From NCBI GenBank assembly GCA_018240895.1, contig JAFEEX010000018.1, positions 35,072-99,071 of the forward strand: a DNA stretch of 64,000 nt, in the 5' to 3' direction. This document shows, piece by piece, positions 3,590-35,077 of this stretch. Under the pieces are notes generated by a model. The model was not told the origin of the DNA. It did not search any database and saw only the letters and a list, made by a program, of their open reading frames with translations. The position numbers and the translations under genes were made by a program. Source of the DNA: Pseudomonadota bacterium. GTDB lineage: Bacteria > Pseudomonadota > Alphaproteobacteria > Sphingomonadales > Sphingomonadaceae. Positions within the stretch are counted from its first letter, which is position 1; each line of letters starts with the position of its first letter.

Positions 3590-5101
3590 TCATTGCAGGT
3601 GGGCCAGCAATTGATCGTGCCCCGGAAAGTTCATAACACATCCTGAAAGGAAGCGGTCGATTCTTGCCATGTCAGCCAGAGGCAAATCGGCTTCGGGCAC
3701 CCGCAACATAGCTGCGTCAGGATACTGGCCGTATCCCGCCAGCAGGCAATGCCATGATATCGCTGAATAATAGTTCTGAATACCAAGGCGGTCCACCTCT
3801 GCATCCAACTCCTCACCGCGGAACCAGGCGGTCATTACCGCTTTCAGCCTGCTCGACAGGTGCTGGTTTTCCGCGTTTGCACGCCAGTATTCACCTCCGC
3901 TGCGCCGGTTCATCCGATAGTGGCACACGATGTAGTCGCGGATGCCTTCGTAGCGCGCATGGATAGCGGCGTTGAAGTGATCGGCATGAGCGCAGCCAAA
4001 ATGATCCGCATCATAAGCTTCGATGAAGTCGACCAATGTTGCGTGGACGATATGCAACGCCGTCGCCTCCAGCGGTTCGATGAAGCCTTGAGCCAGACCT
4101 ATCGCCAAACAGTTGTGCACCCAGGTCCGCCGCACCTGCCCAACCTTCATCCTGAGGTGCCGTGCGGATATGTCCGCGTCGAGCAGGCCCAAATGGCGGC
4201 GCAGCTCGGTTTCCGCGGCGTCCGCCGAAGCAAACCCGGAAGAATAGACATAGCCATTCCCGGTGCGGTTGGTCAGGGGAATCTGCCAGACCCATCCGCT
4301 GTCAAGCGCAGTCGACACGGTTTCGCACCCGGTTGCGCCCGTCCCGCGCGGGGTGGGCATGGCGACGGCGGCATCGTTGAACAGATTATCCGCAAATGAC
4401 TCGAACGGTTCGCCCAACGCCTGCTGTATCAGCGCCGAGCGAAATCCTGATGCATCGACAAAGAAATCGCCGGCAATCTCTTCGCCTTCGTCGGTGATCA
4501 GTGCCGCGAGTTCGCCTTGGTCAGCCCGGCGAGCGGTTTCAACCTTACGGGGCAAATGGGTCACTCCCAGTTTGCCGGTGGCATGATCGCGCAGGAATTC
4601 CCCAAGCAACTGTGCATCGAAGTGATAACCGTAGCTGACATCGAAGGGAAAGTTTTCAGTGGGCTTCGGGCCGAGCCTGGCCTCAGCAAGCCGTGCGGAA
4701 AGAAAGAACCTGTCCGGATGAGCGCAAACATCGCGCCCGGTACGCCGCGCACGCGTGTGAAAAAAGAATGCGGGCGCGGTGTGAACGTCAAGATCACTTT
4801 GGAACGGGTGAAAATAGGATCCGTATCCGGGTACGTCAGACCAGTTGCGAAACCGAATCCCGTTCTTGAACGTTGCATTGCAGCGCGGCATCCATTCCGC
4901 TTCGGCAATGTCCAATGCGTCGAAGAACGCTTTGAGCTGGGGCGTTGATCCTTCACCAACTCCGACAATGCCTATCTCAGGACTTTCCACCAAGGTGACG
5001 CTGGCGATCGCTGGCCCCCACCGACGCGCGATAAGACAAGCTGCCATCCACCCCGCCGTACCGCCGCCGAGAATGACGAAACGGTGCGGCGGGCGGTTCA
5101 T
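3590..5101 (-). CDS. Flavin-dependent tryptophan-halogenase-like protein (operon-distal copy)
   Basis: At 503 residues this resembles PrnA-type FADH2-dependent halogenases. The FAD-binding GGGTAGWMAA lies at residues 12-21. A lysine sits at position 79 (NATFKNG), matching the catalytic K79 of PrnA. The family signature WxWxIP is present as WVWQIP (270-275). A glutamate at 345 in PLEAT matches the PLEST glutamate of characterised enzymes. The catalytic core therefore looks intact. It is the last gene of the maltose-type operon: its ATG overlaps the GH97 stop by four bases, so translation is coupled. No flavin reductase is encoded nearby. Related proteins beside TonB receptors are known in Caulobacterales and Xanthomonas, but their natural substrate is not established. 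Confidence 0.88.
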   Translation of the reverse strand: MNRPPHRFVILGGGTAGWMAACLIARRWGPAIASVTLVESPEIGIVGVGEGSTPQLKAFFDALDIAEAEWMPRCNATFKNGIRFRNWSDVPGYGSYFHPFQSDLDVHTAPAFFFHTRARRTGRDVCAHPDRFFLSARLAEARLGPKPTENFPFDVSYGYHFDAQLLGEFLRDHATGKLGVTHLPRKVETARRADQGELAALITDEGEEIAGDFFVDASGFRSALIQQALGEPFESFADNLFNDAAVAMPTPRGTGATGCETVSTALDSGWVWQIPLTNRTGNGYVYSSGFASADAAETELRRHLGLLDADISARHLRMKVGQVRRTWVHNCLAIGLAQGFIEPLEATALHIVHATLVDFIEAYDADHFGCAHADHFNAAIHARYEGIRDYIVCHYRMNRRSGGEYWRANAENQHLSSRLKAVMTAWFRGEELDAEVDRLGIQNYYSAISWHCLLAGYGQYPDAAMLRVPEADLPLADMARIDRFLSGCVMNFPGHDQLLAHLQ

Positions 5102-7134
5102 TTGGCTGCCTTGAAGCGGATCGCCGCGCCGCCGCCGGGGGCCAGCCGCAGGGTCAGGGTGTCGGCGCCGGTCAGTACCCGCTTTTCAATCGCGATGCTG
5201 TGGCGCTTTTCGGTGCGGTAATCGGCGTCATCGCCATCACGATAGATTTCCGCTTCATAGCGCTTTCCGGGGGTAAGAAAGCTGAGCGGAACGGTCAGCG
5301 TGTGCGCCTGTTCGTTGCCCACCGCGCCCAGATACCAGTCCTGACCGCCGCGCACCCGCCGCGCGATGGTGACGTAGTCGCCAACTTCGCCGTTAAGCAC
5401 GCGCGTTTCCTCCCAGTCAGTCGGCACGTCGCGGATGAATTTGAAGGCGTCCATGTGCTTGGCGTAGTTTTCCGGGGTATCCGCCGCCATCACCACCGGC
5501 GAATAGAGCACCACGTAAAGCGCAAGCTGCTTGGCCTCGGTCGACAGGATCGCGCTGTTGTCGCTGCCGGTCAGGCTGAGTACGCCCGGGGTGAAATCCA
5601 TCGGCCCTTCCAGCATCCGGGTGAACACCAGGTTCGCTTCGTGGTTTGGCGGGTTCTTGCCGGCCCACGAATTGTATTCCATCCCGCGCGAACCCTCACG
5701 CGCCACCCAGTTGGGATAGGTCCGCTGAAGCCCGGTGCCCTTGATCGGTTCGTGGCTGTCAAAGGCGATCTTGTATTTGGCGGCGGCTTCGGCAACGCGG
5801 ATGAAGTGATTGCTCATCCACTGGCCTTCGTGCCATTCGCGCAGTTTGGTGCCATCGGGATCAACCCGCTCGATCTGCCCGGCGTCCGTGACATAACCGG
5901 TCTTGACCACCATGTAATTGTGATCGGCGGCAAACTTGAACGCCTTGTCAAACTGCGCTTCGTAATGGCTGGCCGATCCGCCGGTTTCGTGGTGGCCGAT
6001 CAGGCGGACACCCTTCTTTTTGGCATAGGCGGTGAGCATATCTGCATCGAAATCCTCGGTCGGTTTGGCGAAGTCCATGGCATTGCCGTTGCCGAACCAG
6101 TCACCGTCCCAGCCCACATTCCAGCCTTCCACCAGCACCTGCGGAATGCCATTGGCGGCGGCGAAATCGATATATTGCTTGACGTGTTCGTTGGTTGCGC
6201 CGTGCTTGGGTCCGCGCGCCCATGACCATTCGCCCTTGATCATATTCCACCACACCCCCACGAACTTGCCGGGCTTGAACCAGCTGACATCACCAAGCTT
6301 GTTGGGCTCGTTGAGGTTCAGCATCAGGTGGCTCATGTAGATGCCCGGTGCATCATCGGCGATGATCATGGTGCGCCACGGCGTGGTCCAGGCACCCGTC
6401 TTGACCACCTTGGGCCGGCCCGCGCCGGGGGTAAGCGCGGCGCGCAGGGTGGTGCCGGTACTGCGCGCAACGGCCATGCCCGAATAGTCGGTCAGCGCCG
6501 CCTCATGCAGGGCAACGTGGGTGCCGTCCGCCAGCTTGATGGTTATCGGCGTATCGGCTGTGCCAACCGCGGACAGCGGGGTCTTTTCATAGAGATATTC
6601 CTCACGGTTCCACAGGAATGCGGGCTTCCACCAGGCGGTGCCATCGCTGGCGAAAGCGAACTCGGTCAGCTCCTCGGCAATGTTGGCGCTGCGCAGGTTC
6701 GGCTGATCGGGAACTTCATAGCGAAAGCCCAGGCCATCATCATAGATCCTGAATTTCAGGTCATAGCTGCGCGCCGGCTGATCCGCTTCCTTCAGATGGA
6801 CCGTCAATTCGCGAAAGTGATTGCGGATCGTGCGCCATTCGCCCCACGGCTGCTGCCAGGTATCATCGGAATCGCGCGTTTCCTGCCCGGTGATGGTCAT
6901 GTGCCGATCAATCTTCGGCGCGTCAGTGAACAGAAAACCAAGTCGCGACTGCGCGATGATCGGCTTGCCCTTGCGCGTGACGCTGTAAACCGCATGGCCA
7001 TCCTGAACGATGTCCACCGCCACGCCGATGGTCCCATCGGGCGAAGTCGCAGTGACCGGCCCCGCGTTCTGCGCCAGCGCTGGAACCGCAACCACCAGCG
7101 CGCACAGCGCCGTCATCATCCGACCAAAGGGCAT
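5098..7134 (-). CDS. Glycoside hydrolase family 97, alpha-glucosidase (SusB-like)
   Basis: A 678-residue protein with a signal peptide (TALCALVVAVPALAQ) followed by the GH97 N-terminal beta domain, catalytic barrel and C-terminal domain. The segments HEPIKGTGLQRTYPNW and REGSRGMEYN match the glutamate-bearing regions of the inverting SusB subgroup. The enzyme should release glucose from maltose, malto-oligosaccharides and possibly other alpha-glucosides in the periplasm. The ATG at 7134 is preferred over the adjoining GTG at 7137 because GGAGAAGG is well spaced before it. It overlaps the preceding GH13 stop by one base and the following halogenase start by four. Confidence 0.9.
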   Translation of the reverse strand: MPFGRMMTALCALVVAVPALAQNAGPVTATSPDGTIGVAVDIVQDGHAVYSVTRKGKPIIAQSRLGFLFTDAPKIDRHMTITGQETRDSDDTWQQPWGEWRTIRNHFRELTVHLKEADQPARSYDLKFRIYDDGLGFRYEVPDQPNLRSANIAEELTEFAFASDGTAWWKPAFLWNREEYLYEKTPLSAVGTADTPITIKLADGTHVALHEAALTDYSGMAVARSTGTTLRAALTPGAGRPKVVKTGAWTTPWRTMIIADDAPGIYMSHLMLNLNEPNKLGDVSWFKPGKFVGVWWNMIKGEWSWARGPKHGATNEHVKQYIDFAAANGIPQVLVEGWNVGWDGDWFGNGNAMDFAKPTEDFDADMLTAYAKKKGVRLIGHHETGGSASHYEAQFDKAFKFAADHNYMVVKTGYVTDAGQIERVDPDGTKLREWHEGQWMSNHFIRVAEAAAKYKIAFDSHEPIKGTGLQRTYPNWVAREGSRGMEYNSWAGKNPPNHEANLVFTRMLEGPMDFTPGVLSLTGSDNSAILSTEAKQLALYVVLYSPVVMAADTPENYAKHMDAFKFIRDVPTDWEETRVLNGEVGDYVTIARRVRGGQDWYLGAVGNEQAHTLTVPLSFLTPGKRYEAEIYRDGDDADYRTEKRHSIAIEKRVLTGADTLTLRLAPGGGAAIRFKAAK

Positions 7135-8771
7135 CACACCTTCTCCTCAACCATCAGCGCGCCATAGGCGGGCAGCGCTTCACCCGGCGTCGCGCCGTTT
7201 ACGGCCACCAGCACGCGGCCCTTTACCACAAGTCCGTTCGGCCAGGCCTGTTCCCGGCCAGAAAGGTTAAACAGGCACAGCACCGCCTGCCCTTCAGCCT
7301 GACGGCGCGCGACCAGCAAGGCATCGCCGGCCTCCAGCACTTCAAAACCGCCCAGTCGCAGCGCCGGATTGGCACGGCGCAGCGCGACAAGATCGCGCGT
7401 CAGGTTCAGCAGCGATGCGGGATCATCCGCTTGGCGGTCTGCGGCGCGGTCCAGATTTTCCGGCCCCAGCGGCAGCCACGGCTGGCCAGTGGTAAAGCCG
7501 CCTTCCGGTGCCTGGGCCTGCCACGGCATCGGAGTGCGGGCTCCATCGCGCGACAGGGTCAGCGGCCAGTTGGCGATCGCTTCGGGATCCTGCAGCAGAT
7601 CGAACGGGATATCGACCTGGGTAAGCCCCAGTTCCTCCCCCTGATAGATGATCGGATTGCCGCGCAGCGCCACCAGCAGCAGCATCTTGATCCGGGCAAA
7701 TGCCGGCCGGTCTTGCGGCGCGCACCACCGCGACAGGGCGCGCGGGGCATCGTGGTTTTCAAAGGCCCAGCTTGGCCACCCTTCCTGCGGGCGGGCGGGC
7801 CAATCGGCCTGGGCCGCCGCGACCAGTGCCGGGGTCAGCGCCTCTGCGTAAAGGAAGTCAAATCCATAGGCGCTGTTGAGCCGCGCGTTGCCGTGGGTGT
7901 AAAGATGCATTTCCCGCAGCGCGTCGGCCCCGCCAACCTCGGCCATGGTAAAGGCCGCGCCATACTCATCGGTAAGCGCGCGAATCCGCTCGATAAAAGC
8001 GGGAATCGCGGAATTTGACTGATTGTATTTGCGCAGCTGAAAATCAAACGGGCGCGTCCGCGGCAGGCCATCTTCAGGGGCGGGCGGATTATCCCGCAGG
8101 GCGGGATCGTGCATCGCGAAATTCAGGGCATCAAGCCGGAAACCGTCCACCCCCCGGTCCAGCCAGAACCGCGCCACATCCAGCAGCGCATCCTGCACTG
8201 CGGGCAAATGGCAATTGAGCTGCGGCTGGCTGCCCAGGAAATTGTGCAGGTAATATTGCCCGCGCCGCGCATCCCAGGTCCAGGCCGGGCCGCCGAACAC
8301 CGATTGCCAGTTGGATGGCGGCGATCCCTCTGGCTTGGGATCGGCCCAGACGTACCAGTCGGCCTTGGGATTGTCGCGGCTCTGGCGGCTTTCGGCAAAC
8401 CACGGGTGCCGATCAGAGGTGTGGGCATAGACCTGATCGATCATCACCTTCAGGCCAAGCGCATGAGCCCGCGCCACCAGCGCATCAAAATCGGCCAGCG
8501 TGCCGAAGATGGGATCGACATCGCAATAGTCAGCAACATCGTATCCGAAATCGTTCATCGGCGACGTGAAGAACGGCGACAGCCAGATCGCATCCACCCC
8601 CAGCGCGGCAATATGATCAAGCCGCCGGGTAACCCCCGGAAGATCGCCGATCCCGTCACCGTTGGTGTCCAGAAAGCTGCGCGGATAGACCTGATAGATC
8701 ACCGCGCCGCGCCACCACGGGCTGGTGCTGTGTGCCGGGCGGGCAGCGGAAACAGACGATTGGCGATTCAT
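7134..8771 (-). CDS. GH13 alpha-glucosidase (oligo-alpha-glucosidase type)
   Basis: The 545-residue protein has the GH13 regions in order: DQVYAHTSD (112-120), GFRLDALN with nucleophile D214, TMAEVGG with acid/base E278, and ENHD with D341. The DQVYAHTSDRHPWF pattern is that of the alpha-glucosidase/oligo-1,6-glucosidase group. No signal peptide is visible, so it probably works in the cytoplasm on imported maltose or isomaltose-type sugars. The ATG at 8771 is used because the longer frame runs into the preceding amylase gene; it starts 16 bases after that stop and its own stop overlaps the GH97 start. Confidence 0.93.
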   Translation of the reverse strand: MNRQSSVSAARPAHSTSPWWRGAVIYQVYPRSFLDTNGDGIGDLPGVTRRLDHIAALGVDAIWLSPFFTSPMNDFGYDVADYCDVDPIFGTLADFDALVARAHALGLKVMIDQVYAHTSDRHPWFAESRQSRDNPKADWYVWADPKPEGSPPSNWQSVFGGPAWTWDARRGQYYLHNFLGSQPQLNCHLPAVQDALLDVARFWLDRGVDGFRLDALNFAMHDPALRDNPPAPEDGLPRTRPFDFQLRKYNQSNSAIPAFIERIRALTDEYGAAFTMAEVGGADALREMHLYTHGNARLNSAYGFDFLYAEALTPALVAAAQADWPARPQEGWPSWAFENHDAPRALSRWCAPQDRPAFARIKMLLLVALRGNPIIYQGEELGLTQVDIPFDLLQDPEAIANWPLTLSRDGARTPMPWQAQAPEGGFTTGQPWLPLGPENLDRAADRQADDPASLLNLTRDLVALRRANPALRLGGFEVLEAGDALLVARRQAEGQAVLCLFNLSGREQAWPNGLVVKGRVLVAVNGATPGEALPAYGALMVEEKV

Positions 8772-8787
8772 GGGCTGGCTGGAACGA

Positions 8788-10593
8788 TCACTCTTTCGCC
8801 GCGCAGACGGCAAAACTCAGGGGAGGAAGGGTCATGGTCACGGTGCCGGGCGCCGCGGCCGCAGACGGGCACTGCCCGGCCAGCGCGGTGAAGGCAAGAC
8901 TGGCCGGATCGACTGCAATGCTATGCGTCAGCGCGGCGGTTGAGGTGTTGAAGGCCAGCAGCACCTCTCGCCCGGTGGCCGGATCGAAACGGGAAACGGC
9001 AAACAGGCCGGGCTTGTCGGATACGGCGCGGACCGTGCTGGCCCCATCGGTCAGCGCCGGGGTGGCGCGGCGTATCCGCGAAAGTTCGGCAATCAGCCGG
9101 TACAGCGGATGCGCCGGGTTGAAACTGGCCTGCGCGGTGGTTGATGATGTTCCAACCAGCGCCTCGTCATTGTATTCGGGCACCTTGCTGGCGAACATAT
9201 CCTGCCGGGCAAGCTGATCGCCGCCATGCCCAGCAAAGCCCTGCTCATCCCCGTAATAGATCACCGGCACCCCGCGCATGGTCAGCATCAGGGCATGGCC
9301 CAGCTTGTCGCGCGCCAGCAGTTCATCAGCGCCGATCCCCGGGTTGGCCTGCTTGAGGAACATCGCGAAACGCCCGGCATCGTGATTGCCCAGGAAGGTT
9401 GGCAGGCGGTTGGCGGCTCGCTTGCCCCCTTCATACAGCACATCATCATCCAGCAGGCGGGCCAGTTCCTCAGTCCCGGTCTTGCCGCTTGAAGCATCGA
9501 TCGCGGCGCGCATGAAGGCAAAATCCAGCACGGCGGGAAGCCCGGCGTTACGGGTCCAGCTTGCCAGCAGCGCCGGATCGAAATCCCCGGTCGCCACCTC
9601 GCCAAAGATGTGGAAGTTGGGGATGCCGCGCGCCTTGGCCCGCGCCAGCATGGCGGGCACGAAGGCGCGCCAGAATTCGGGATTGACGTGCTTGGCCGTA
9701 TCGATGCGGAAGCCGTCAACGCCATAGCGATCAATCCAGTCGCCATAGATTTCAATCATCCCGGCAACCACACGGGGGTTTTCGGTGGCGATGTCGTCCA
9801 GCCCAACGAAATCGCCATAGAGCGCGCTTTCGCCCTTCCAGTTCGAATTGCCGCGGTTGTGATACCAGATCGGATCGTTGAGCCAGGCCGGCGTCTTGGC
9901 CTTTTCCTCACCCCTGGGCACATACGGCGTATAGGCGAACGAGGGATCGGTCATCTTCGCCCAGTTGGCGGGCGAGGGATCGGCATCGCCGGCAAAGCCC
10001 GGATTGATCGCCGCGCCGCCCGGTCCGCCCCGGCGCGAGAACGGATAGTCGGCCTTGGAACGGTAGGAATAATCGCCGCCCTCGCGGTACTGGATCACAT
10101 CGGCGGTGTGGTTGACCACGATGTCCATATAGACCTTGATCCCGCGCGCATGGGCAGCATCGACAAAGGCCTTGAACTCGGCATTGGTGCCGAAATGCGG
10201 ATCGACCGAGGTGAAATCGGTAATCCAATACCCGTGATAGCCCGCGCTTTCATCACCCTTCGGCCCCTGCACCGGCTTGTTCCGAAAGATCGGCGCAAAC
10301 CAGATCGTCGTCGCGCCCAGCCCCTGGATGTAATCAAGCCGCTGCGTCAGCCCCTTGAGATCGCCGCCATGATAAAAACCCTTGGCCGATGGATCAAACC
10401 CGGTCTTCAACCGATCGCCCTTGATCCCGCCCGTGTCGTTCTTCGGATCGCCGTTCTCAAACCGGTCAGGCAGAACGAAATAGACCACCTCCTGTTCGGG
10501 CGTGCGGGCGCGGTAATCCTGCGCCTGCGGAATGGGCTGAGCCTGAGCAGCACAGGCCAGTAACGGCGCGAGCAAGGCGAGGGAAAAACGCAT
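8788..10593 (-). CDS. Secreted GH13 alpha-amylase / neopullulanase-like enzyme
   Basis: A signal peptide (LALLAPLLACAAQAQ) precedes a 601-residue GH13 enzyme. The four conserved regions are MDIVVNHTAD (156-165), GFRIDTAKH with nucleophile D298, FGEVATGD with E332, and LGNHD with D405. The large insertion between regions I and II and the early FYHGGDLKG segment resemble SusA/cyclomaltodextrinase-type amylases. It should cut malto-oligosaccharides or starch fragments in the periplasm or at the outer membrane. Its ATG overlaps the stop of the upstream halogenase gene by one base (TGATG), so it is translationally coupled. Confidence 0.93.
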   Translation of the reverse strand: MRFSLALLAPLLACAAQAQPIPQAQDYRARTPEQEVVYFVLPDRFENGDPKNDTGGIKGDRLKTGFDPSAKGFYHGGDLKGLTQRLDYIQGLGATTIWFAPIFRNKPVQGPKGDESAGYHGYWITDFTSVDPHFGTNAEFKAFVDAAHARGIKVYMDIVVNHTADVIQYREGGDYSYRSKADYPFSRRGGPGGAAINPGFAGDADPSPANWAKMTDPSFAYTPYVPRGEEKAKTPAWLNDPIWYHNRGNSNWKGESALYGDFVGLDDIATENPRVVAGMIEIYGDWIDRYGVDGFRIDTAKHVNPEFWRAFVPAMLARAKARGIPNFHIFGEVATGDFDPALLASWTRNAGLPAVLDFAFMRAAIDASSGKTGTEELARLLDDDVLYEGGKRAANRLPTFLGNHDAGRFAMFLKQANPGIGADELLARDKLGHALMLTMRGVPVIYYGDEQGFAGHGGDQLARQDMFASKVPEYNDEALVGTSSTTAQASFNPAHPLYRLIAELSRIRRATPALTDGASTVRAVSDKPGLFAVSRFDPATGREVLLAFNTSTAALTHSIAVDPASLAFTALAGQCPSAAAAPGTVTMTLPPLSFAVCAAKE

Positions 10594-12119
10594 CAGGCAG
10601 CTCCCTGGTCGGGGTGACCAGACAATTGGGCAACAAAGTCGGCGTGCTTAGGCAATGAGTCCGCTCTGGCTTGATAGGCCCTGCTTAGACTGTCCAGAAA
10701 CGGTCCAATATCCTGCGCGGGGACGTTATCCGCCAGCGGCGACCATCCCTGCGGCACAATGCCTTGACCGATCATCACCTGCCCCCAGCTATCATCCAGA
10801 AACAGTTCGTCGTCTTCACGCATGAACAGCCCGGCTTCGCGAAACAGAGCGATCTTGTCCGCCAGCGTCGCGGGAAGCTGCATGGACCGGCAGTGATCCC
10901 AGAATGGTTCCCCTACCCGCTGGTTGGCGGCGTAGTGCAGGACGATGAAGTCCCGGACTCTTTCCCATTCGGCAACTGACAGCCGGTTGAACGTTGACCG
11001 TGCCGTTTCCAGGTCACCCAGATCACGCGGCAACAGATTCAGCAGCCGTCCGATACCAGACTGGACCAGATGGATGCTGGTCGATTCAAGCGGTTCCATG
11101 AACCCCGCGGAGAGTCCAAGCGCCACGCAGTTGTGCGACCAGTATTCACGGCGATGGCCTGCGCCAAACCGGATTGGCCGCGGGTCGGCCAGCGGTTCGC
11201 CGTCGACATTGGCAAGCAGGATCGCGCTCGCCTCGTCAACCGACATGAATGACGAACAGAATACGTGGCCGTTGCCCGTGCGGTGCTGCAGCGGAATACG
11301 CCACTGCCAGCCCGCCTTGTGGGCGATTGATTGGGTGTAGGGACGAAAATGGCGGCCAGAGGCCGTCGGCATGGCCAGCGCGGTGTCGCATGGCAACCAA
11401 TTGGTCCAGTCGGTGTGGGGCACATCCAGCGTGTCGCCCAACAGCAGGCTACGAAAGCCCGTGCAGTCGATGAAGAAGTTTCCGGCAACGCGGCGCTCGC
11501 CCTCAAGGCGAAGCGTGGTAATGTCCCCGTTCAAACCATCGCGCTCTACCCCGACAATCCGTCCTTCAACGCGGCTTACCCCGCGTTCAGTGGCATAGTC
11601 GCGCAGCATCTGCGCAAACAGCGTCGCGTCGAGGTGATAGGCATAAGCCAGATCCGCACCTGCCAGACCCTGTGGTTGGGCAAAGGCAAAACGGTTCTGG
11701 CGCGCCGCAGCAATATTGAAACTGTAGTCGCCAAAATCACCTGCGACGCCCAGCGCCCGCCCGCGCAGCCACAACTGTCGGAACGGGATCAGCCCCACCC
11801 CGCGTCCGACGGTGCCGAAACTGTGAATGTAGCTTTCACCCGGGCGCAGCCAGTCAGCAAATTCAATGCCCAGCTTGAAACTGGCATTGGTGCGGCGCAG
11901 GAACTCCGTCTGATCCAGCCCCAACCCAATCAGCAGATTGTGAATCTGCGGAATGGTCGCTTCGCCGACACCAACCGTGCCAATCTCATCGGATTCGACA
12001 AGGGTGATTGAGGCGCAGTCGCCAAGGAACCGCGCCAGGATTGCGGCAGCAATCCACCCTGCGGTCCCCCCACCGGCAATCACGAACTCCAGGCGCGACT
12101 CTTCGCTCATGACAGTCAT
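10593..12119 (-). CDS. Flavin-dependent tryptophan-halogenase-like protein (operon-proximal copy)
   Basis: At 508 residues it carries GGGTAGWIAA at 17-26 (FAD binding), a lysine at position 82 in NASFKLG (position 79 if the ATG at 12110 is used), WQWRIP at 271-276 (WxWxIP signature) and PLEST at 343-347 with E345. All catalytic landmarks of PrnA-type halogenases are present. It is clearly paralogous to, but diverged from, the copy at 3590-5101. It lies between the TonB receptor and the amylase genes, a place where such genes recur in sphingomonads and caulobacters. The ATG at 12110 has better spacing to the AGGGG upstream than the one at 12119. Substrate and reductase partner are unknown. Confidence 0.88.
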   Translation of the reverse strand: MTVMSEESRLEFVIAGGGTAGWIAAAILARFLGDCASITLVESDEIGTVGVGEATIPQIHNLLIGLGLDQTEFLRRTNASFKLGIEFADWLRPGESYIHSFGTVGRGVGLIPFRQLWLRGRALGVAGDFGDYSFNIAAARQNRFAFAQPQGLAGADLAYAYHLDATLFAQMLRDYATERGVSRVEGRIVGVERDGLNGDITTLRLEGERRVAGNFFIDCTGFRSLLLGDTLDVPHTDWTNWLPCDTALAMPTASGRHFRPYTQSIAHKAGWQWRIPLQHRTGNGHVFCSSFMSVDEASAILLANVDGEPLADPRPIRFGAGHRREYWSHNCVALGLSAGFMEPLESTSIHLVQSGIGRLLNLLPRDLGDLETARSTFNRLSVAEWERVRDFIVLHYAANQRVGEPFWDHCRSMQLPATLADKIALFREAGLFMREDDELFLDDSWGQVMIGQGIVPQGWSPLADNVPAQDIGPFLDSLSRAYQARADSLPKHADFVAQLSGHPDQGAA

Positions 12120-12176: not shown

Positions 12177-14885
12177 TCAGAACTTGTAGGTGAAGCCCGC
12201 AAGGAAACGGCGGCCATAGGTCTGGTACTTGAGCCAGGCGTCCGGCACGGCCGCCCCATTGATCTGAGCCAGAGTCGCCTGGCGCTCGTCAGTCAGGTTC
12301 TGGCCCTGCAGGAACAAGGACAGCCCCTGAAGCGCAGATCCCTTCGGGAAGTCATAACCGATCTGAGCGTCGTAGACAGTCTCAGACAGGACCGCCTGAC
12401 GATCAAGGCCACCACTGAACAGCGAGAAATCGCCCAGGAAGCCGGAGCGATACCGCATCGATCCGCGCACGCTGAAGCCGTGGTCTTCATAGAACGCGGT
12501 AAGGTTGCCGACGTACTTCGAATAACCCGGAATGACTGTTGCCTTGCCTGCCGAATCGAAAGCCTTGGTTTCGGTGTAGCCGATACCGCCGGTGATACCG
12601 AAGCCGCTCAACGCCGACGTGAACACGTCAAACGGCAGAGTACCAGCCAGTTCGCCGCCGATAATCCATCCACCCTTGGTATTGACGGGTCCGCTGAAGA
12701 CGCCGATCGGCGTGCTTGGCACAATACCGGCGGGAACAGGATAACCAGAATAATTATAGTTCAAATCTATCCCGTTCGGATCAATATAATCCACCAAGTG
12801 CTTGTAGTATAGCTGCGCCGCGATGTAACCCTTGTTTCCAAAGTACTTTTCAACCGAAAGGTCCAATGCCACGGCCTTATACGGGCGCAGTTTCGGATTT
12901 CCGCCACCACCGGTGTAGATAGGAGGTGTGTAGGCAATATTTGCAGAGAATCCAACAGTATTGTTCATATCAGGCAGGCGCGGACGCATCATTTGTTCCG
13001 ATGCAGCCAGGCGGATCACCATGTCATTCGGTGTACGAATGTTCAGGTTGGCGCTAGGCAGGATCATCCAGTACTTGTCAGTCAGCGTTCCGTTGACCGC
13101 CCCGTATGAATTGACCGCAGTGTGAACGGCAGTAACGCCGAAATTGCCCGTCAGCGTATTGCCGTTGCCAAGATCCTTGTCGAGCGTGGCCATGGCATAG
13201 GGCGACCAGACATCTTCACTGATCCGATAGGCTTGCGAAGCACCATAGGGGTTCGCTTGGTAGAGGAGCACACCTGCCGGGACCAGAGTGCGCGGATCGT
13301 AGGACAGGAGCGGTCCGAAACCCCGGCTCAGATTTACCGAAGTCAGTAGCAGATTGCTGGGAACGACGACGCCATCAGCCCCGCCCGGCGGTACCAGGAA
13401 CGCCTCATCCTGCGTCAGATGCTTCTTGCGATAGGTGTGATCCACCCCGACCTTCACTGCCTTGATGAAACCGCCGATATCCTTTTCGATTTCGGCACGG
13501 ATCTCCTTCAGGTCATCGCGGCTCTTGCGGATCTTGTCATAGCCGGCCTGGTTGGTTGATCCTGACCAGCCTTGGACGTCCGTCAGAACCAGTGCCGGGT
13601 TGGCACCGTTGAAATTGCTGGTGAACAGCAGTGCATTGCTACCGGTAAGCGTCGAGCTGAAGGTTCCGCCCGGCGTGGACAGATTGCGCCCCAAACCCGC
13701 CGTGGTTTCCAGGCGATCCTGCCACCGATCGGTGCGGGACCAGCTCACATCAAGGATTGCGCGAGTGCCGGCGTCGTTATCCCACTTGAGATTGCCACCG
13801 AACGAATAGGTGTTGTTCTTGTTGTCGGTTGCGTAATTTTCGACGATCGGGCGGCCGGTCCACGTGGCAGCGGTGATAATGCCGATAGGATAGACGTTGC
13901 CACCAATGGCATAGCTGTTAACGGTGCCGGGCGTAAAGCTGGTGACGGTCGATCCACAGCACAGGATCGGCATTTCGAAGCCCTTCTGGTCAAGCTTCTC
14001 ATTGAAATGCGAATAAAAACCATCAACGGTAAAAGTCAGCTGATCGCTGAACTTTGCCTGAAAAGTGCCATTGAGACCAAGGCGCTTCAGGCGTGACGAT
14101 TCTTCCCAAGTCTTAACGCCGCTGATGCCGTACTGATTGGTGCCATAGCTGCCATAGCCCCAAGCGTTCCAGTCGTGAGTCTGATAAGGCTCGTCCGAAT
14201 AAGCGGCAGAAAGGGCGATGCCCATCGTGTCATTCGCAAACTGGTCAACATAGGTACCATAGACGCGGTACCCCTTGTTCGTCGCAGTCGGGATAACCCG
14301 CTGATCAACAACGGTGCCGCGGGCACCAACAGCCACAACACGCTTGCCCAGGTCAAGCGGACGGATTGTACGCATATTGATTGAGCCGACAAGCCCGCCA
14401 GCCGTGTGATCAGCCTGTGCGGTCTTGTAGATGTCAACACCGGCAAGAATTTCCGAGGGGAATTGGTCGAATTCCACCGCGCGGCTGTCATTGGTGGTGG
14501 TCTGCTCGCGGCCATTCAGCGTGGTGGTCGAAAAGTCCGGCCCAAAGCCGCGGATCGAGATGATGTTGGCGCGCCCATTGCTGCGCTGGGCGGCGATGCC
14601 CGGCAGACGGGCGATCGATTCGCCGATCGAATTGTCCGGCAGCTTGCCAATGTCTTCGGCACTGACCGACTCTACCACCGCTTCGGTACGCTTCTTGACC
14701 GAGGTTGCGCTCTGCAGCGCGGCGCGGAAACCGGTAACGACGATTTCGCCGCTATCGGCACCGGTATCGCTGGCGGCGGGGGCTGCGTCCTGCGCCCAGG
14801 CGGCGACCGGAAGCGCGAAAGCGGAAACTGTCAGGGCGATGGCGGATGCGCCAAGGTGGCCACGAAGACGAGTGCGAAGTGCCAA
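12177..14885 (-). CDS. TonB-dependent receptor, probable malto-oligosaccharide importer
   Basis: The 902-residue protein starts with a signal peptide ending near AWAQ (about residue 31), then EIVVTGFR, a plug domain (KLPDNSIGESIARLPGIAAQ, IISIRGFGPDFSTTTLNGRE) and a long beta-barrel ending in the aromatic FLAGFTYKF needed for outer-membrane assembly. It fits the Xanthomonas/Caulobacter receptor group (TIGR01782-like). Its operon contains two GH13 and one GH97 alpha-glucan enzymes, and a LacI regulator is divergent. Uptake of maltodextrins across the outer membrane, as by Caulobacter MalA, is therefore likely. It is the first gene of the operon. Confidence 0.93.
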   Translation of the reverse strand: MALRTRLRGHLGASAIALTVSAFALPVAAWAQDAAPAASDTGADSGEIVVTGFRAALQSATSVKKRTEAVVESVSAEDIGKLPDNSIGESIARLPGIAAQRSNGRANIISIRGFGPDFSTTTLNGREQTTTNDSRAVEFDQFPSEILAGVDIYKTAQADHTAGGLVGSINMRTIRPLDLGKRVVAVGARGTVVDQRVIPTATNKGYRVYGTYVDQFANDTMGIALSAAYSDEPYQTHDWNAWGYGSYGTNQYGISGVKTWEESSRLKRLGLNGTFQAKFSDQLTFTVDGFYSHFNEKLDQKGFEMPILCCGSTVTSFTPGTVNSYAIGGNVYPIGIITAATWTGRPIVENYATDNKNNTYSFGGNLKWDNDAGTRAILDVSWSRTDRWQDRLETTAGLGRNLSTPGGTFSSTLTGSNALLFTSNFNGANPALVLTDVQGWSGSTNQAGYDKIRKSRDDLKEIRAEIEKDIGGFIKAVKVGVDHTYRKKHLTQDEAFLVPPGGADGVVVPSNLLLTSVNLSRGFGPLLSYDPRTLVPAGVLLYQANPYGASQAYRISEDVWSPYAMATLDKDLGNGNTLTGNFGVTAVHTAVNSYGAVNGTLTDKYWMILPSANLNIRTPNDMVIRLAASEQMMRPRLPDMNNTVGFSANIAYTPPIYTGGGGNPKLRPYKAVALDLSVEKYFGNKGYIAAQLYYKHLVDYIDPNGIDLNYNYSGYPVPAGIVPSTPIGVFSGPVNTKGGWIIGGELAGTLPFDVFTSALSGFGITGGIGYTETKAFDSAGKATVIPGYSKYVGNLTAFYEDHGFSVRGSMRYRSGFLGDFSLFSGGLDRQAVLSETVYDAQIGYDFPKGSALQGLSLFLQGQNLTDERQATLAQINGAAVPDAWLKYQTYGRRFLAGFTYKF

Positions 14886-15035: not shown

Positions 15036-15184
15036 ATTATGCAGGCGGCCCGGGTGTGGCCGTAGTGCAACGCCCCGGCAGCAGCCTGCATCATGCGGAG
15101 CCGGGCCGCATTGTGAACGATTGCAGCCGGTGCCGCGCGGGCCTAGGGAAATGGCAGCGCCTGCCAAAGGCGCGGGGAGCGGCC

Positions 15185-16219
15185 ATGGGGCGCATTCGGT
15201 CTAACAAGCCAACCAGCTTTGACATTGCCTATCTGGCGGGCGTGTCACAGCCCACTGTCAGCCGCGCGCTGCGCGGATCGCGCGCGGTAAGCCTGGCGAC
15301 CCGGCAACGGATCGAGGCGATTGCGCAGGAACTGAACTACTCGGTTGACAAGAACGCCTCATCCCTGCGCTCACAGCGGTCCAACACCATCGCGCTGCTG
15401 TTCTTTGAGGAACAGGCCCCGGAAGAATCGAAGATCAACCCGTTTTTCCTGGCGATGCTGGGGTCAATCACCCGCGCCTGTGCCAACCGCGGGTTCGATC
15501 TGCTGATCTCGTTCCAGAAGATGGAGGATGACTGGCACACCCGTTATCAGGACAGCCACCGGGCCGACGGGCTGATCCTGCTGGGCTATGGCGACTATAC
15601 CCTTTACAAGAGCCGGCTGGAAACACTGGTTGGCGCAGGCACTGATTTCGTCCGCTGGGGATCGGTGGGTGCCGATACCATTGGCGCCACGGTGGGATCA
15701 GACAATTTCGGTGCAGGCCGCGCTGCGGGGGAGCATCTGCTGTCGCTGGGCCGGCGGCGGATTGCCTTTATTGGCCAGGCTGACGAGCACTATCCCGAAT
15801 TCGCCGATCGCTATCGCGGGCTGTGCGCCGCGCTGGAAGCCGCCGGGATCGATCCCGATCCGGCCCTGCTGCGCGGCGGGGTGAGCATTGAGGAGGATGG
15901 CCGCGCGGCGGCACAAGATCTGCTGACAGCGGGAACCGGTTTTGACGCGATCTTCGCGGCCAGCGATCTGATAGCCATCGGCGCGATGCGGGCGCTTTCG
16001 GCAGCGGGACTGCGCATCCCCCATGACGTGGCGATCATGGGGTTTGATGATCAGCCCGCCGCCAGCATGACCAACCCGCCCCTGACCACCGTGATGCAGG
16101 ATTTGAAAGGCGCGGGCGAGCTGCTGGTCGAAACCCTGCTGGCCCGGATTGAGGACCGCCCGGTTCCCGATGCGGTAATCCCGGCCCGCCTGATAGCAAG
16201 GCAAAGCACAACCGGCTGA
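15185..16219 (+). CDS. LacI-family regulator of the maltose locus
   Basis: The 344-residue protein begins with a LacI DNA-binding domain (FDIAYLAGVSQPTVSRALRG, then VSLATRQRIEAIAQELNY) and continues as a periplasmic-binding-like sensor domain (FAASDLIAIGAMRALSAAGL, IMGFDDQPAASMTNPPLTTV). The ATG at 15185 is preceded by GGGGAG at good spacing; the longer frame from 15056 would add 43 residues without domain character. It is divergent from the receptor operon and followed by the MFS importer gene about 100 bases later. Operator-like repeats lie on both sides of it. It most likely represses the locus until a maltose-type inducer binds. Confidence 0.92.
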   Translation: MGRIRSNKPTSFDIAYLAGVSQPTVSRALRGSRAVSLATRQRIEAIAQELNYSVDKNASSLRSQRSNTIALLFFEEQAPEESKINPFFLAMLGSITRACANRGFDLLISFQKMEDDWHTRYQDSHRADGLILLGYGDYTLYKSRLETLVGAGTDFVRWGSVGADTIGATVGSDNFGAGRAAGEHLLSLGRRRIAFIGQADEHYPEFADRYRGLCAALEAAGIDPDPALLRGGVSIEEDGRAAAQDLLTAGTGFDAIFAASDLIAIGAMRALSAAGLRIPHDVAIMGFDDQPAASMTNPPLTTVMQDLKGAGELLVETLLARIEDRPVPDAVIPARLIARQSTTG

Positions 16220-16270: not shown

Positions 16271-16321
16271 TCTATTGTGACGCGGGCCAAGCCGTGCCAG
16301 CCCGGCCACAAGGGAATTGGG

Positions 16322-17851
16322 ATGGGACACGGTATGGAAAAGCCCCGCCAGGATTGGGCCGGTCTGGCCAGTATCAGCTTCGGCTTCTTTGGCATCCAGA
16401 TCGGCTTTGCGCTGCAGAACGCCAATATGAGCCGGGTGTTCCAGTCGTTGGGGTCCAGCCTGGATGATCTGCCCGCGCTGTGGGTCGCCGCGCCGCTGAC
16501 CGGGCTGCTGGTCCAGCCGGTGATCGGCTATATGTCGGATCGCACCTGGCTCGGCCGCTTTGGCCGGCGGCGGCCCTATTTCCTGGCGGGCGCGGTGCTG
16601 GCGGCGCTGTCTCTGCTGCTGATGCCGCTCAGCCACGTCTTGCTGATGGCGGCGCTGCTGCTGTGGATGCTTGATGCCAGCCTTAACGTGTCGATGGAGC
16701 CGTTCCGCGCCTTTGTTGGCGATATGCTGCGCAAGGATCAGCATACCGCCGGCTATGCGGTGCAGACCGCGTTTATCGGCGTGGGCGCGGTGGTTGGATC
16801 GCTGTTTCCCTATCTGCTCGATCATCTGGGGGTGGCCAATACCGCGCCGCAGGGGACCATTCCCGATACGGTGCGCTATTCGTTCTGGGCGGGCGGTATT
16901 GCCCTGCTGGGTGCGGTGCTGTGCACGGTGTTCACCACCCGGGAATACTCGCCGGAAGAGCTGCGAGCCTTTGGCGAAGAAAGCGAAACCCATACCGATA
17001 CCGATACCGGTGCCGCACTGGCCGAGCGCAATGGCGGTTCCTCGTTCTGGTGGATAGCGGCGGGCACCCTGCTCGCGCTGGTAACCGAGCGCTTGGGGTT
17101 CAAGAAGGAAGTCTACCTGCTCGCTGGCCTGCTCGCGGGATATGGCCTGCTCAGTTACATCGCGATCCGCCTTGCCCGCGCCGGGCGCAGCCAGGGAATG
17201 CTGGCCAGCATTGTTGGCGATTTTTCAGGGATGCCGCCAATCATGAAGCGGCTGGCGCTGGTGCAGTTCTTCAGCTGGTCGGCGCTGTTCATCATGTGGA
17301 TCAACACCACCCCGATCGTCGCACAGAACTTCTTCGGATCATCCGATCCGGCCAGCGCCGCCTATCAGGAAGGCGGCAATTGGGTGGGGGTGCTGTTTTC
17401 GGTCTATAACGGCGTCGCCGCGCTGGCGGCGCTGTTCCTGCTGCCCGCGCTGTCACGGCGGATCGGCAAGGCGCGGACGCATATGATCTGCCTGCTGGCG
17501 GGTGCGGCGGGATATGCCAGTTTCTTCGTGCTGAAAAACCCCGATCACCTGATCTTCAGCGAAGTGGGCGTTGGCATTGCCTGGGCCTCTATCCTGGCCA
17601 TGCCTTACGCGATTCTTGCCTCCAGCCTGCCGCAGGCCAAGCTAGGCATCTACATGGGGCTGTTCAACGTCTTTGTAGTTATCCCGCAACTGCTGGTGGC
17701 GACGGTGATGGGATCGATCATGAAGGCGTTCTTCCCCGGCCAGCCGATCTGGACCATGGCCTTCGCCGCCGGAACACTGGTGCTGGCGGCGCTGGCGATG
17801 ACGCGGGTCAAGGTGCCGGGGGAGGACGGTTCGGCAAGCGCCCAGGCCTGA
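16322..17851 (+). CDS. MFS/GPH-type sugar transporter, probable maltose importer (MalY-like)
   Basis: A 509-residue membrane protein with about twelve hydrophobic segments. The motifs FGFFGIQIGFALQNANMSRV, VIGYMSDRTW and LGRFGRRRPYF place it with the sucrose/maltose cation symporters of the GPH/MFS group, such as Caulobacter MalY. It should carry maltose or short maltodextrins over the inner membrane, feeding the cytoplasmic GH13 alpha-glucosidase. The ATG at 16322 is preceded by AAGGGA; the longer frame starts at 16277. A LacI-type operator lies just upstream. It is convergent with the VOC gene, with only three bases between the stops. Confidence 0.9.
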   Translation: MGHGMEKPRQDWAGLASISFGFFGIQIGFALQNANMSRVFQSLGSSLDDLPALWVAAPLTGLLVQPVIGYMSDRTWLGRFGRRRPYFLAGAVLAALSLLLMPLSHVLLMAALLLWMLDASLNVSMEPFRAFVGDMLRKDQHTAGYAVQTAFIGVGAVVGSLFPYLLDHLGVANTAPQGTIPDTVRYSFWAGGIALLGAVLCTVFTTREYSPEELRAFGEESETHTDTDTGAALAERNGGSSFWWIAAGTLLALVTERLGFKKEVYLLAGLLAGYGLLSYIAIRLARAGRSQGMLASIVGDFSGMPPIMKRLALVQFFSWSALFIMWINTTPIVAQNFFGSSDPASAAYQEGGNWVGVLFSVYNGVAALAALFLLPALSRRIGKARTHMICLLAGAAGYASFFVLKNPDHLIFSEVGVGIAWASILAMPYAILASSLPQAKLGIYMGLFNVFVVIPQLLVATVMGSIMKAFFPGQPIWTMAFAAGTLVLAALAMTRVKVPGEDGSASAQA

Positions 17852-35067: not shown

Positions 35068-35077
35068 CTACAAAACA

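Follow-up and report, generated by a model that had tools for sequence, protein, structure and literature searches.

Halogenase-like paralogues in a sphingomonad alpha-glucan uptake operon: divergence of HalB parallels that of the TonB-dependent receptor

Organization of the operon

The window analyzed here is a stretch of 64,000 nucleotides, positions 35,072 to 99,071, of contig JAFEEX010000018.1 (assembly GCA_018240895.1), from a bacterium of the Sphingomonadaceae. It contains an operon, entirely on the minus strand, in which genes for two halogenase-like proteins, HalA and HalB, accompany those of a TonB-dependent receptor (TBDR) and of three glycoside hydrolases. From open reading frame calls and profile matches, the gene order is TBDR-HalB-GH13-GH13-GH97-HalA (Table 1). 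As the initial annotation of this DNA had described, one halogenase gene lies directly behind the receptor gene and the other ends the operon. The overlaps of 1 and 4 bases that it gave for the hydrolase genes agree with the coordinates (HalA/GH97, 4 bases; GH97/GH13, 4 bases; GH13/HalB, 1 base), and the end of the receptor gene and the start of HalB are 57 bases apart. The reading frames of HalA and HalB are both open and intact. The receptor scores 481 bits against TIGR01782, for a cut-off of 310. The genes of a mal/CUT locus are thus present together, namely a TBDR, GH13 enzymes, a LacI regulator and an MFS transporter; judging from the enzymes of the operon, the cargo of the receptor would be maltodextrin, and maltose would be the inducer.

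Table 1. Genes of the operon and its divergent neighbors, with positions in the window
Gene	Description	Position	Strand	Length	Basis
TBDR	TonB-dependent receptor, TIGR01782 TonB-Xanth-Caul; leads the operon	12177..14885	-		profile match
HalB	PF04820 halogenase-like, BrvH/Xcc4156 branch; directly behind the receptor; K82, W271/W273, E345	10593..12119	-	508 aa	
GH13a	GH13 enzyme, first	8788..10593	-		profile match
GH13b	GH13 enzyme, second; TTG start uncertain	7134..8813	-		profile match
GH97	GH97 enzyme	5098..7137	-		profile match
HalA	PF04820 halogenase-like, branch distinct from that of HalB; ends the operon; K79, W270/W272, E345, PLEAT not PLEST	3590..5101	-	503 aa	
LacI	LacI-family regulator, divergent from the receptor	15056..16219	+		profile match
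MFS	MFS transporter, divergent from the receptor	16277..17851	+		profile match

Related operons

The operon was compared with those in a set of 59 genomes of the genus Novosphingobium. Thirty-nine operons of the genus have a receptor gene followed by two GH13 genes, and are referred to below as mal operons; HalB is found in 28 of these and HalA in 4. Because there are mal operons without one or both of the enzymes, neither HalA nor HalB is essential there. Twenty candidate places with no halogenase listed were examined, 11 of which are TBDR-GH13-GH13 operons; several further GH13 matches (64-69% identical) lie outside the sample, and the 39 are therefore not every such operon.

A scan of public records seeded with HalA yielded 79 loci, which hold the 80 relatives most like HalA out of at least 546. 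Among the 60 of these loci that exceed 20 kb, a TBDR is found in 50, GH13 in 42, GH97 in 22, a B-type halogenase in 35 and two or more halogenases in 38. A same-strand arrangement of TBDR-HalB, two GH13 genes and HalA occurs in 26 of the 79 loci, and GH97 was detected in 21 of the 26; in one variant (L250), HalA precedes the GH13 genes. The 26 include records of Novosphingobium sediminis, Sphingomonas, Sphingopyxis, Sphingomicrobium and Alteraurantiacibacter. Several records are metagenome assemblies, and one (L178) is from the same genome as the mal operon L114. Plasmid plas1 of Qipengyuania citrea (NCF85_RS15890-RS15915) likewise carries all six genes of the window's operon, arranged identically, a likeness known from annotation; both halogenase genes are annotated there as 'tryptophan halogenase family protein', and the HalA is 53% identical to that of the window. 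The bracketing of the enzyme set by two halogenase genes, which had been singled out as special, is hence shared with other genomes.

Seven Pseudoalteromonas loci have a different order, TBDR-HalA-GH13-MFS, with HalA directly behind the receptor and no HalB (L214, L220, L233, L241, L242, L243, L251). Pseudoalteromonas sp. THAF3 has TBDR-halogenase-MFS-ROK-GH20, with a halogenase that is 42% identical.

Covariation of HalB with the receptor

Distances between the genes were compared in two sets of operons. Set 1 consists of the 24 of the 39 mal operons that hold all seven genes, those missing any being left out. Set 2 consists of 29 operons, i.e., the 26 from the HalA-seeded scan plus the window, L027 and L030, with L114 dropped in favor of L178. 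The two sets have three operons in common (the window, L027 and L178/L114).

In set 1, the distances of HalB and of the receptor are correlated with an r of 0.88, and the partial correlation, given GH13a, GH13b, GH97, LacI and MFS, is 0.77 (0 of 1000 permutations). The partial correlation of HalB with GH13a is 0.01, despite the one-base overlap of the two genes. When outlying operons are removed from set 1, the HalB-TBDR value is 0.78-0.84, and with 12 dereplicated operons it is 0.58. Set 2 gives a HalB-TBDR partial correlation of 0.66 (0 of 1000 permutations); for HalA and the receptor, the value is -0.05 (731 of 1000 permutations), the best partner of HalA being GH13b, at 0.41.

The same relationship is seen in pairs of operons. 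Set 1 contains 46 pairs in which GH13a, GH13b and LacI are all at least 74% identical. The receptors are less than 60% identical in 7 of these pairs, and so is HalB in all 7; in the 39 pairs whose receptors are at least 60% identical, HalB never falls below 60%. By our reading, the seven swapped pairs would correspond to about three events, one of which appears to concern the lineage of the window itself. That is, between the window and L053 the identities are 85% for LacI, 87% for MFS, 80 and 78% for the GH13 enzymes and 81% for GH97, versus 49% for the receptor and 53% for HalB. Among the 79 loci of the HalA-seeded scan (the top 80 of 546 or more relatives), the best matches to the receptor of the window (60% over 873 aa) and to its HalB (75% over 284 aa, the gene being cut by a contig end) are in one and the same Sphingomonas record, L199. 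The LacI and MFS proteins of L199 are 62% and 60% identical to those of the window, which does not exceed the level reached in other loci (up to 63% and 73%).

Halogenase genes across the genus

PF04820 matches above the cut-off were found in at least 48 of the 59 Novosphingobium genomes, counted from the strongest 150 matches. We annotated 131 loci, one of which (L034) is from another family, together with 20 kb at the start of the window. Leaving out L034 and pieces of 380 aa or less, there are 164 halogenase genes; three short pieces (two in L118, one in L082) were dropped from a separate count. Genes in these loci were called by a simple codon score and receptors by a purpose-built profile, which may miss distant ones; the counts carry shared descent and are hence not independent.

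A receptor gene is found in the same-strand gene run of 137 of the 164 halogenase genes, and 95 of the 164 lie directly behind one. About 1% would be expected directly behind a receptor gene, given that the genomes have a median of 38 receptor candidates by loose criteria and assuming about 4000 genes. The association, which the initial annotation had proposed to check by a genome survey, is thus supported as a real one. GH13 is found in the run of 48 of the 164 genes, and GH97 in that of 28. Elsewhere, the companions identified with Pfam are GH3, GH30 and MFS (L025), GH68 (L028), GH16, SapC and Cupin_8 (L104) and ROK (L055). Since the companions vary, the halogenase family goes with sugar-type receptor operons in general, and a role specific to alpha-glucans is rejected, as the runs of only 48 of the 164 halogenase genes contain GH13. 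The proposed link between sugar uptake and halogenation thus stands as regards receptor operons, and fails as regards alpha-glucan chemistry: in addition to the GH13 count, HalB is missing from some mal operons and follows the receptor rather than the hydrolases.

Two or more halogenase genes are found in 28 same-strand runs. Designating copies of the HalA side as A and those of the HalB side as B, 23 of these runs combine A with B, 3 are B with B, 2 include a degenerate copy and none is A with A. The idea that two copies occur together by chance was rejected on this basis. By gene order, the 23 runs are of three operon types, and therefore not independent cases. The first is the mal type (n = 4: the window, L027, L030, L114). 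The second is a sucrose-like type, TBDR-B-A-GH13 (n = 8: L028, L029, L032, L033, L038, L039, L106, L150), where GH68 is confirmed in L028 only and L106 shows no TBDR. The third is TBDR-A-SapC-Cupin_8-B (n = 11: L042, L084, L092, L104, L112, L113, L116, L125, L142, L147, L149), often with GH16 and LacI following; Pfam was used on L104 only, and the other members are assigned by gene order and length. When BrvH was used as the query, matches were found in 11 of 114 genomes of the class.

Class-B halogenases adjoin genes for TPR proteins and 2OG-Fe(II) oxygenases (PF13759) in L026, L029, L080 and L148, which hints that receptor operons may hold oxidative enzymes of other kinds. The halogenase gene in the TBDR run of L118 (G028:C13) seems to be split in two, either as a broken copy or as an artefact of gene calling.

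Features of HalA and HalB

HalA and HalB are 34.9% identical to each other and score 406 and 592 bits, respectively, against PF04820 (cut-off 21). The motifs reported for these two diverged proteins by the initial annotation are all intact: both have the GGGTAGW FAD motif, the lysine that matches PrnA K79, WxWxIP and the glutamate, the last within PLEAT in HalA and PLEST in HalB. The histidines His98/His99 are also present. The lysine, the glutamate and the second tryptophan of WxWxIP occur together in 161 of 165 sequences (164 of the genus and one, L034, of another family). These three residues are lost in the remaining four, L043, L065, L132 and L152; the L043 and L065 copies lie inside clusters of four halogenases. 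In all 13 HalA copies from mal and sucrose-type operons, the lysine, the glutamate and WxWxIP are invariant, and an alignment shows alanine at two further positions, those of Ser347 and Gly349 in PrnA numbering.

In a tree of 57 halogenases, HalB joins BrvH, Xcc4156 and 9luq. HalA falls outside this branch, on the side of the free-tryptophan halogenases, and the branch that separates the two has an SH-aLRT value of 100, from a short search with SH-aLRT as the only support measure and no bootstrap. A tree of this kind had been suggested at the outset. The best PDB sequence matches of HalB are 9luq (492 bits), Xcc4156 (470) and BrvH (403); those of HalA are Th-Hal, BorH and LooH, at 303-304 bits, with BrvH lower, at 242. 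The predicted structure of HalB (pLDDT 85, pTM 0.86) has Xcc4156 as its top fold match, with a TM of 0.93. That of HalA (pLDDT 77, pTM 0.81) is weak around residues 251-281 and 336-345, and its top fold match is BorH, with a TM of 0.78. Neither predicted structure gave a hint at the substrate.

In halogenases of the RebH/PrnA type, a loop with Tyr-Tyr and Glu holds the amino-acid backbone of free tryptophan. This loop is missing from both HalA and HalB when they are aligned to LooH and 6ul2. Th-Hal is also without it in the same alignment, where the 8fov sequence used stops before the loop, and a PyrH-like pocket may therefore still apply to HalA. HalA and HalB are most likely halogenases whose substrate is not free tryptophan.

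HalB resembles BrvH (6frl) and Xcc4156 (6y1w) in its branch, its fold (TM 0.90-0.93), its catalytic residues and its lack of a RebH-type clamp. BrvH is reported to brominate indole, and not free tryptophan (PMC5945002); Xcc4156 likewise accepts indole and rejects free tryptophan, and its authors state that the native substrates of these halogenases 'remain unknown', suggesting a peptide by analogy with MibH (PMC7336383). The brvH gene, like those of HalA and HalB, has a second halogenase gene beside it, whose product is 42.7% identical (PMC5945002). Unlike HalB, neither enzyme is linked to a receptor operon in the main texts of PMC5945002 and PMC7336383, from which the word 'TonB' is absent. 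The top PDB sequence match of HalB, 9luq (TM 0.92), is a halogenase of Pseudoalteromonas sp. L11 released in 2026; we found no paper on this structure. HalA, on the tree side of BorH and LooH, is similar in fold to BorH (6ul2), LooH, RebH and PrnA (TM 0.77-0.81), but differs from them in the absent Tyr-Tyr-Glu loop and in the two alanines. QhpG, a peptidyl-tryptophan dihydroxylase, is a flavoprotein of similar fold that acts on tryptophan within a protein (PMC7876137). An assignment of HalA or HalB to this type was rejected, as they score only 32.3 and 36 bits against NF049967, far below the cut-off of 240.

The FAD motif of HalB starts within its first 18 residues. This leaves little space for a signal peptide, such that a receptor precursor would have to be modified in the cytoplasm. 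A search restricted to the PF01613 family found no flavin reductase in the window, in line with the initial annotation; there is one elsewhere in the genome, which is 89% complete, on contig C26.

Discussion

The interpretation that we favor, with a confidence that we would put at about even, is that HalA and HalB are accessory halogenase paralogues of an alpha-glucan uptake operon, the role of HalB being tied to the receptor and HalA being a separate module. The two would be long-separated flavin-dependent enzymes, in an operon that is probably controlled by LacI. Going by what is known of the family, FADH2 from a reductase encoded elsewhere, together with O2 and a halide, would yield hypohalous acid, which would be relayed by the conserved lysine to an electron-rich aromatic ring. 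The function of HalB appears to be bound to its receptor, with which it diverges and is swapped; this tie is a correlation. Because HalB is swapped with the receptor while GH13a does not follow, its substrate or setting would go with the receptor, i.e., it would be a peptide or protein, of which the receptor is the simplest candidate, or a compound specific to the receptor's ligand. An enzyme acting on the sugar or its products should track the hydrolases and the transporter at least equally well. HalB does not, so that three options are left, namely the receptor itself, a ligand specific to it, or hitch-hiking. HalA, in turn, would be a module of mal and sucrose-type operons whose divergence, again by correlation, is independent of that of the receptor, and it probably acts on a substrate other than that of HalB.

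Several observations weigh against a tie of this kind. The rank-based partial correlation of HalB and the receptor in set 1 is 0.33, and 0.26 with the 12 dereplicated operons; a few large swaps therefore account for much of the signal. HalB also has partial correlations of 0.35 and 0.24 with GH13b (sets 1 and 2) and of 0.23 with GH97. Eleven of the 39 mal operons have no HalB, and its presence requires 5 changes on the receptor tree, at least 4 of them forced by well-supported branches. The receptors of L126 and L164 are 88.7% identical, yet HalB is found in L126 and not in L164. Among the aromatic columns of the 39 mal receptors, with and without HalB, no position tracks HalB. The association is also weaker beyond receptor-rich groups, where one of four distant alphaproteobacterial loci has a TBDR nearby, on the opposite strand. 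Lastly, the receptor and HalB genes are adjacent, and block transfer alone could yield the pattern.

This last point leads to the foremost alternative, in which recombination, driven for instance by phages, exchanges the receptors and carries the adjacent HalB with them; HalB would in reality act on a small indole or phenol that has no connection with the receptor. We consider this possible, though less probable than the interpretation above. It would account for the missing copies of HalB, and fits the acceptance of indole by BrvH and Xcc4156; other genes of the operon are mosaic as well, GH97 falling into two classes that are 68-82% and 50-55% identical to that of the window. However, GH13a, which overlaps HalB by one base, does not track it, and LacI, the other neighbor of the receptor, tracks the receptor weakly (0.35, with values from -0.19 to 0.43 as different operons are removed). 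HalB is also swapped in every one of the seven receptor-swapped pairs.

A second alternative is that HalB modifies its cognate receptor before export, by halogenating or oxidizing an aromatic side chain. It would agree with the parallel divergence, with the absence of a clamp for free tryptophan, with the peptide substrate proposed for BrvH and Xcc4156 (PMC7336383) and with the precedent of QhpG, whose structure is like that of FAD halogenases (PMC7876137); other halogenase copies, moreover, sit with Cupin_8 proteins and 2OG-Fe(II) oxygenases. Yet no aromatic residue of the receptor is gained or lost together with HalB, a nearly unchanged receptor persists without it in L164, and the early FAD motif would require action on the precursor in the cytoplasm. 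We regard this as unlikely. The broader proposal that HalB-type 'tryptophan halogenases', of which receptor-rich Proteobacteria have several copies per genome, each modify an aromatic residue of the adjoining receptor in this way, with HalA serving the same program of uptake as another enzyme, independent of the receptor, is likewise doubtful. We know of no report of such a post-translational modification of outer-membrane transporters.

It is more improbable still that these proteins are divergent flavin monooxygenases or oxidases that have lost halogenation. The two alanines in all 13 HalA copies would suit this idea, but the lysine, the glutamate and WxWxIP are invariant in the same copies, and the nearest characterized relatives of HalB halogenate. 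A reaction other than halogenation, which the initial annotation had raised, is thus neither shown nor needed, given the intact catalytic residues and the bromination of indole by BrvH. That they are ordinary free-tryptophan halogenases for a secondary metabolite is very improbable: PF04820 and the best PDB matches bear that name, but the Tyr-Tyr-Glu loop is absent, HalB groups with enzymes that reject tryptophan, and the rest of the operon encodes a receptor and glycoside hydrolases.

Returning to the favored interpretation, the covariation shows an enzyme of the BrvH/Xcc4156 type diverging and being swapped with one partner gene, that of the TBDR, and so narrows the search for the native substrate. 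Should the receptor prove to be the substrate, common environmental bacteria would have a type of membrane-protein modification that is new; otherwise, HalB would still be set apart from HalA and from sugar hydrolysis. The Xanthomonas maltose/maltodextrin CUT locus (XCC2469) and the Caulobacter mal locus share with the operon a TBDR, alpha-glucosidases, a sugar transporter and a repressor (PMC1790865). The operon differs from them by GH97 and the two halogenases, the word 'halogenase' not occurring in the main text of that paper. We recognized no description of halogenase genes in TBDR sugar operons in the literature searched, from which subscription papers were mostly absent, and this is no proof of novelty; in the text seen of PMC11337851, both 'tryptophan halogenase' and 'TonB-dependent' occur, with no link drawn between the genes.

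Neighboring genes

A divergent LacI gene adjoining the receptor recurs in many mal operons of the genus. The GH97 gene of the window is 68-82% identical to those of some mal operons (e.g., L027, L053, L117, L134, L135, L182, L187) and 50-55% identical to those of others. Positions 1-1492 of the window are the start of an adjacent operon, TBDR-GH3-halogenase-GH30-MFS, with LacI at 407-1492 (L025, G000:C14:20000-38000). The source genome has two further PF04820 genes, one of them in this GH3/GH30 operon, about 4.6 kb beyond the window; three halogenase genes thus lie within about 18 kb, across two adjacent sugar operons.

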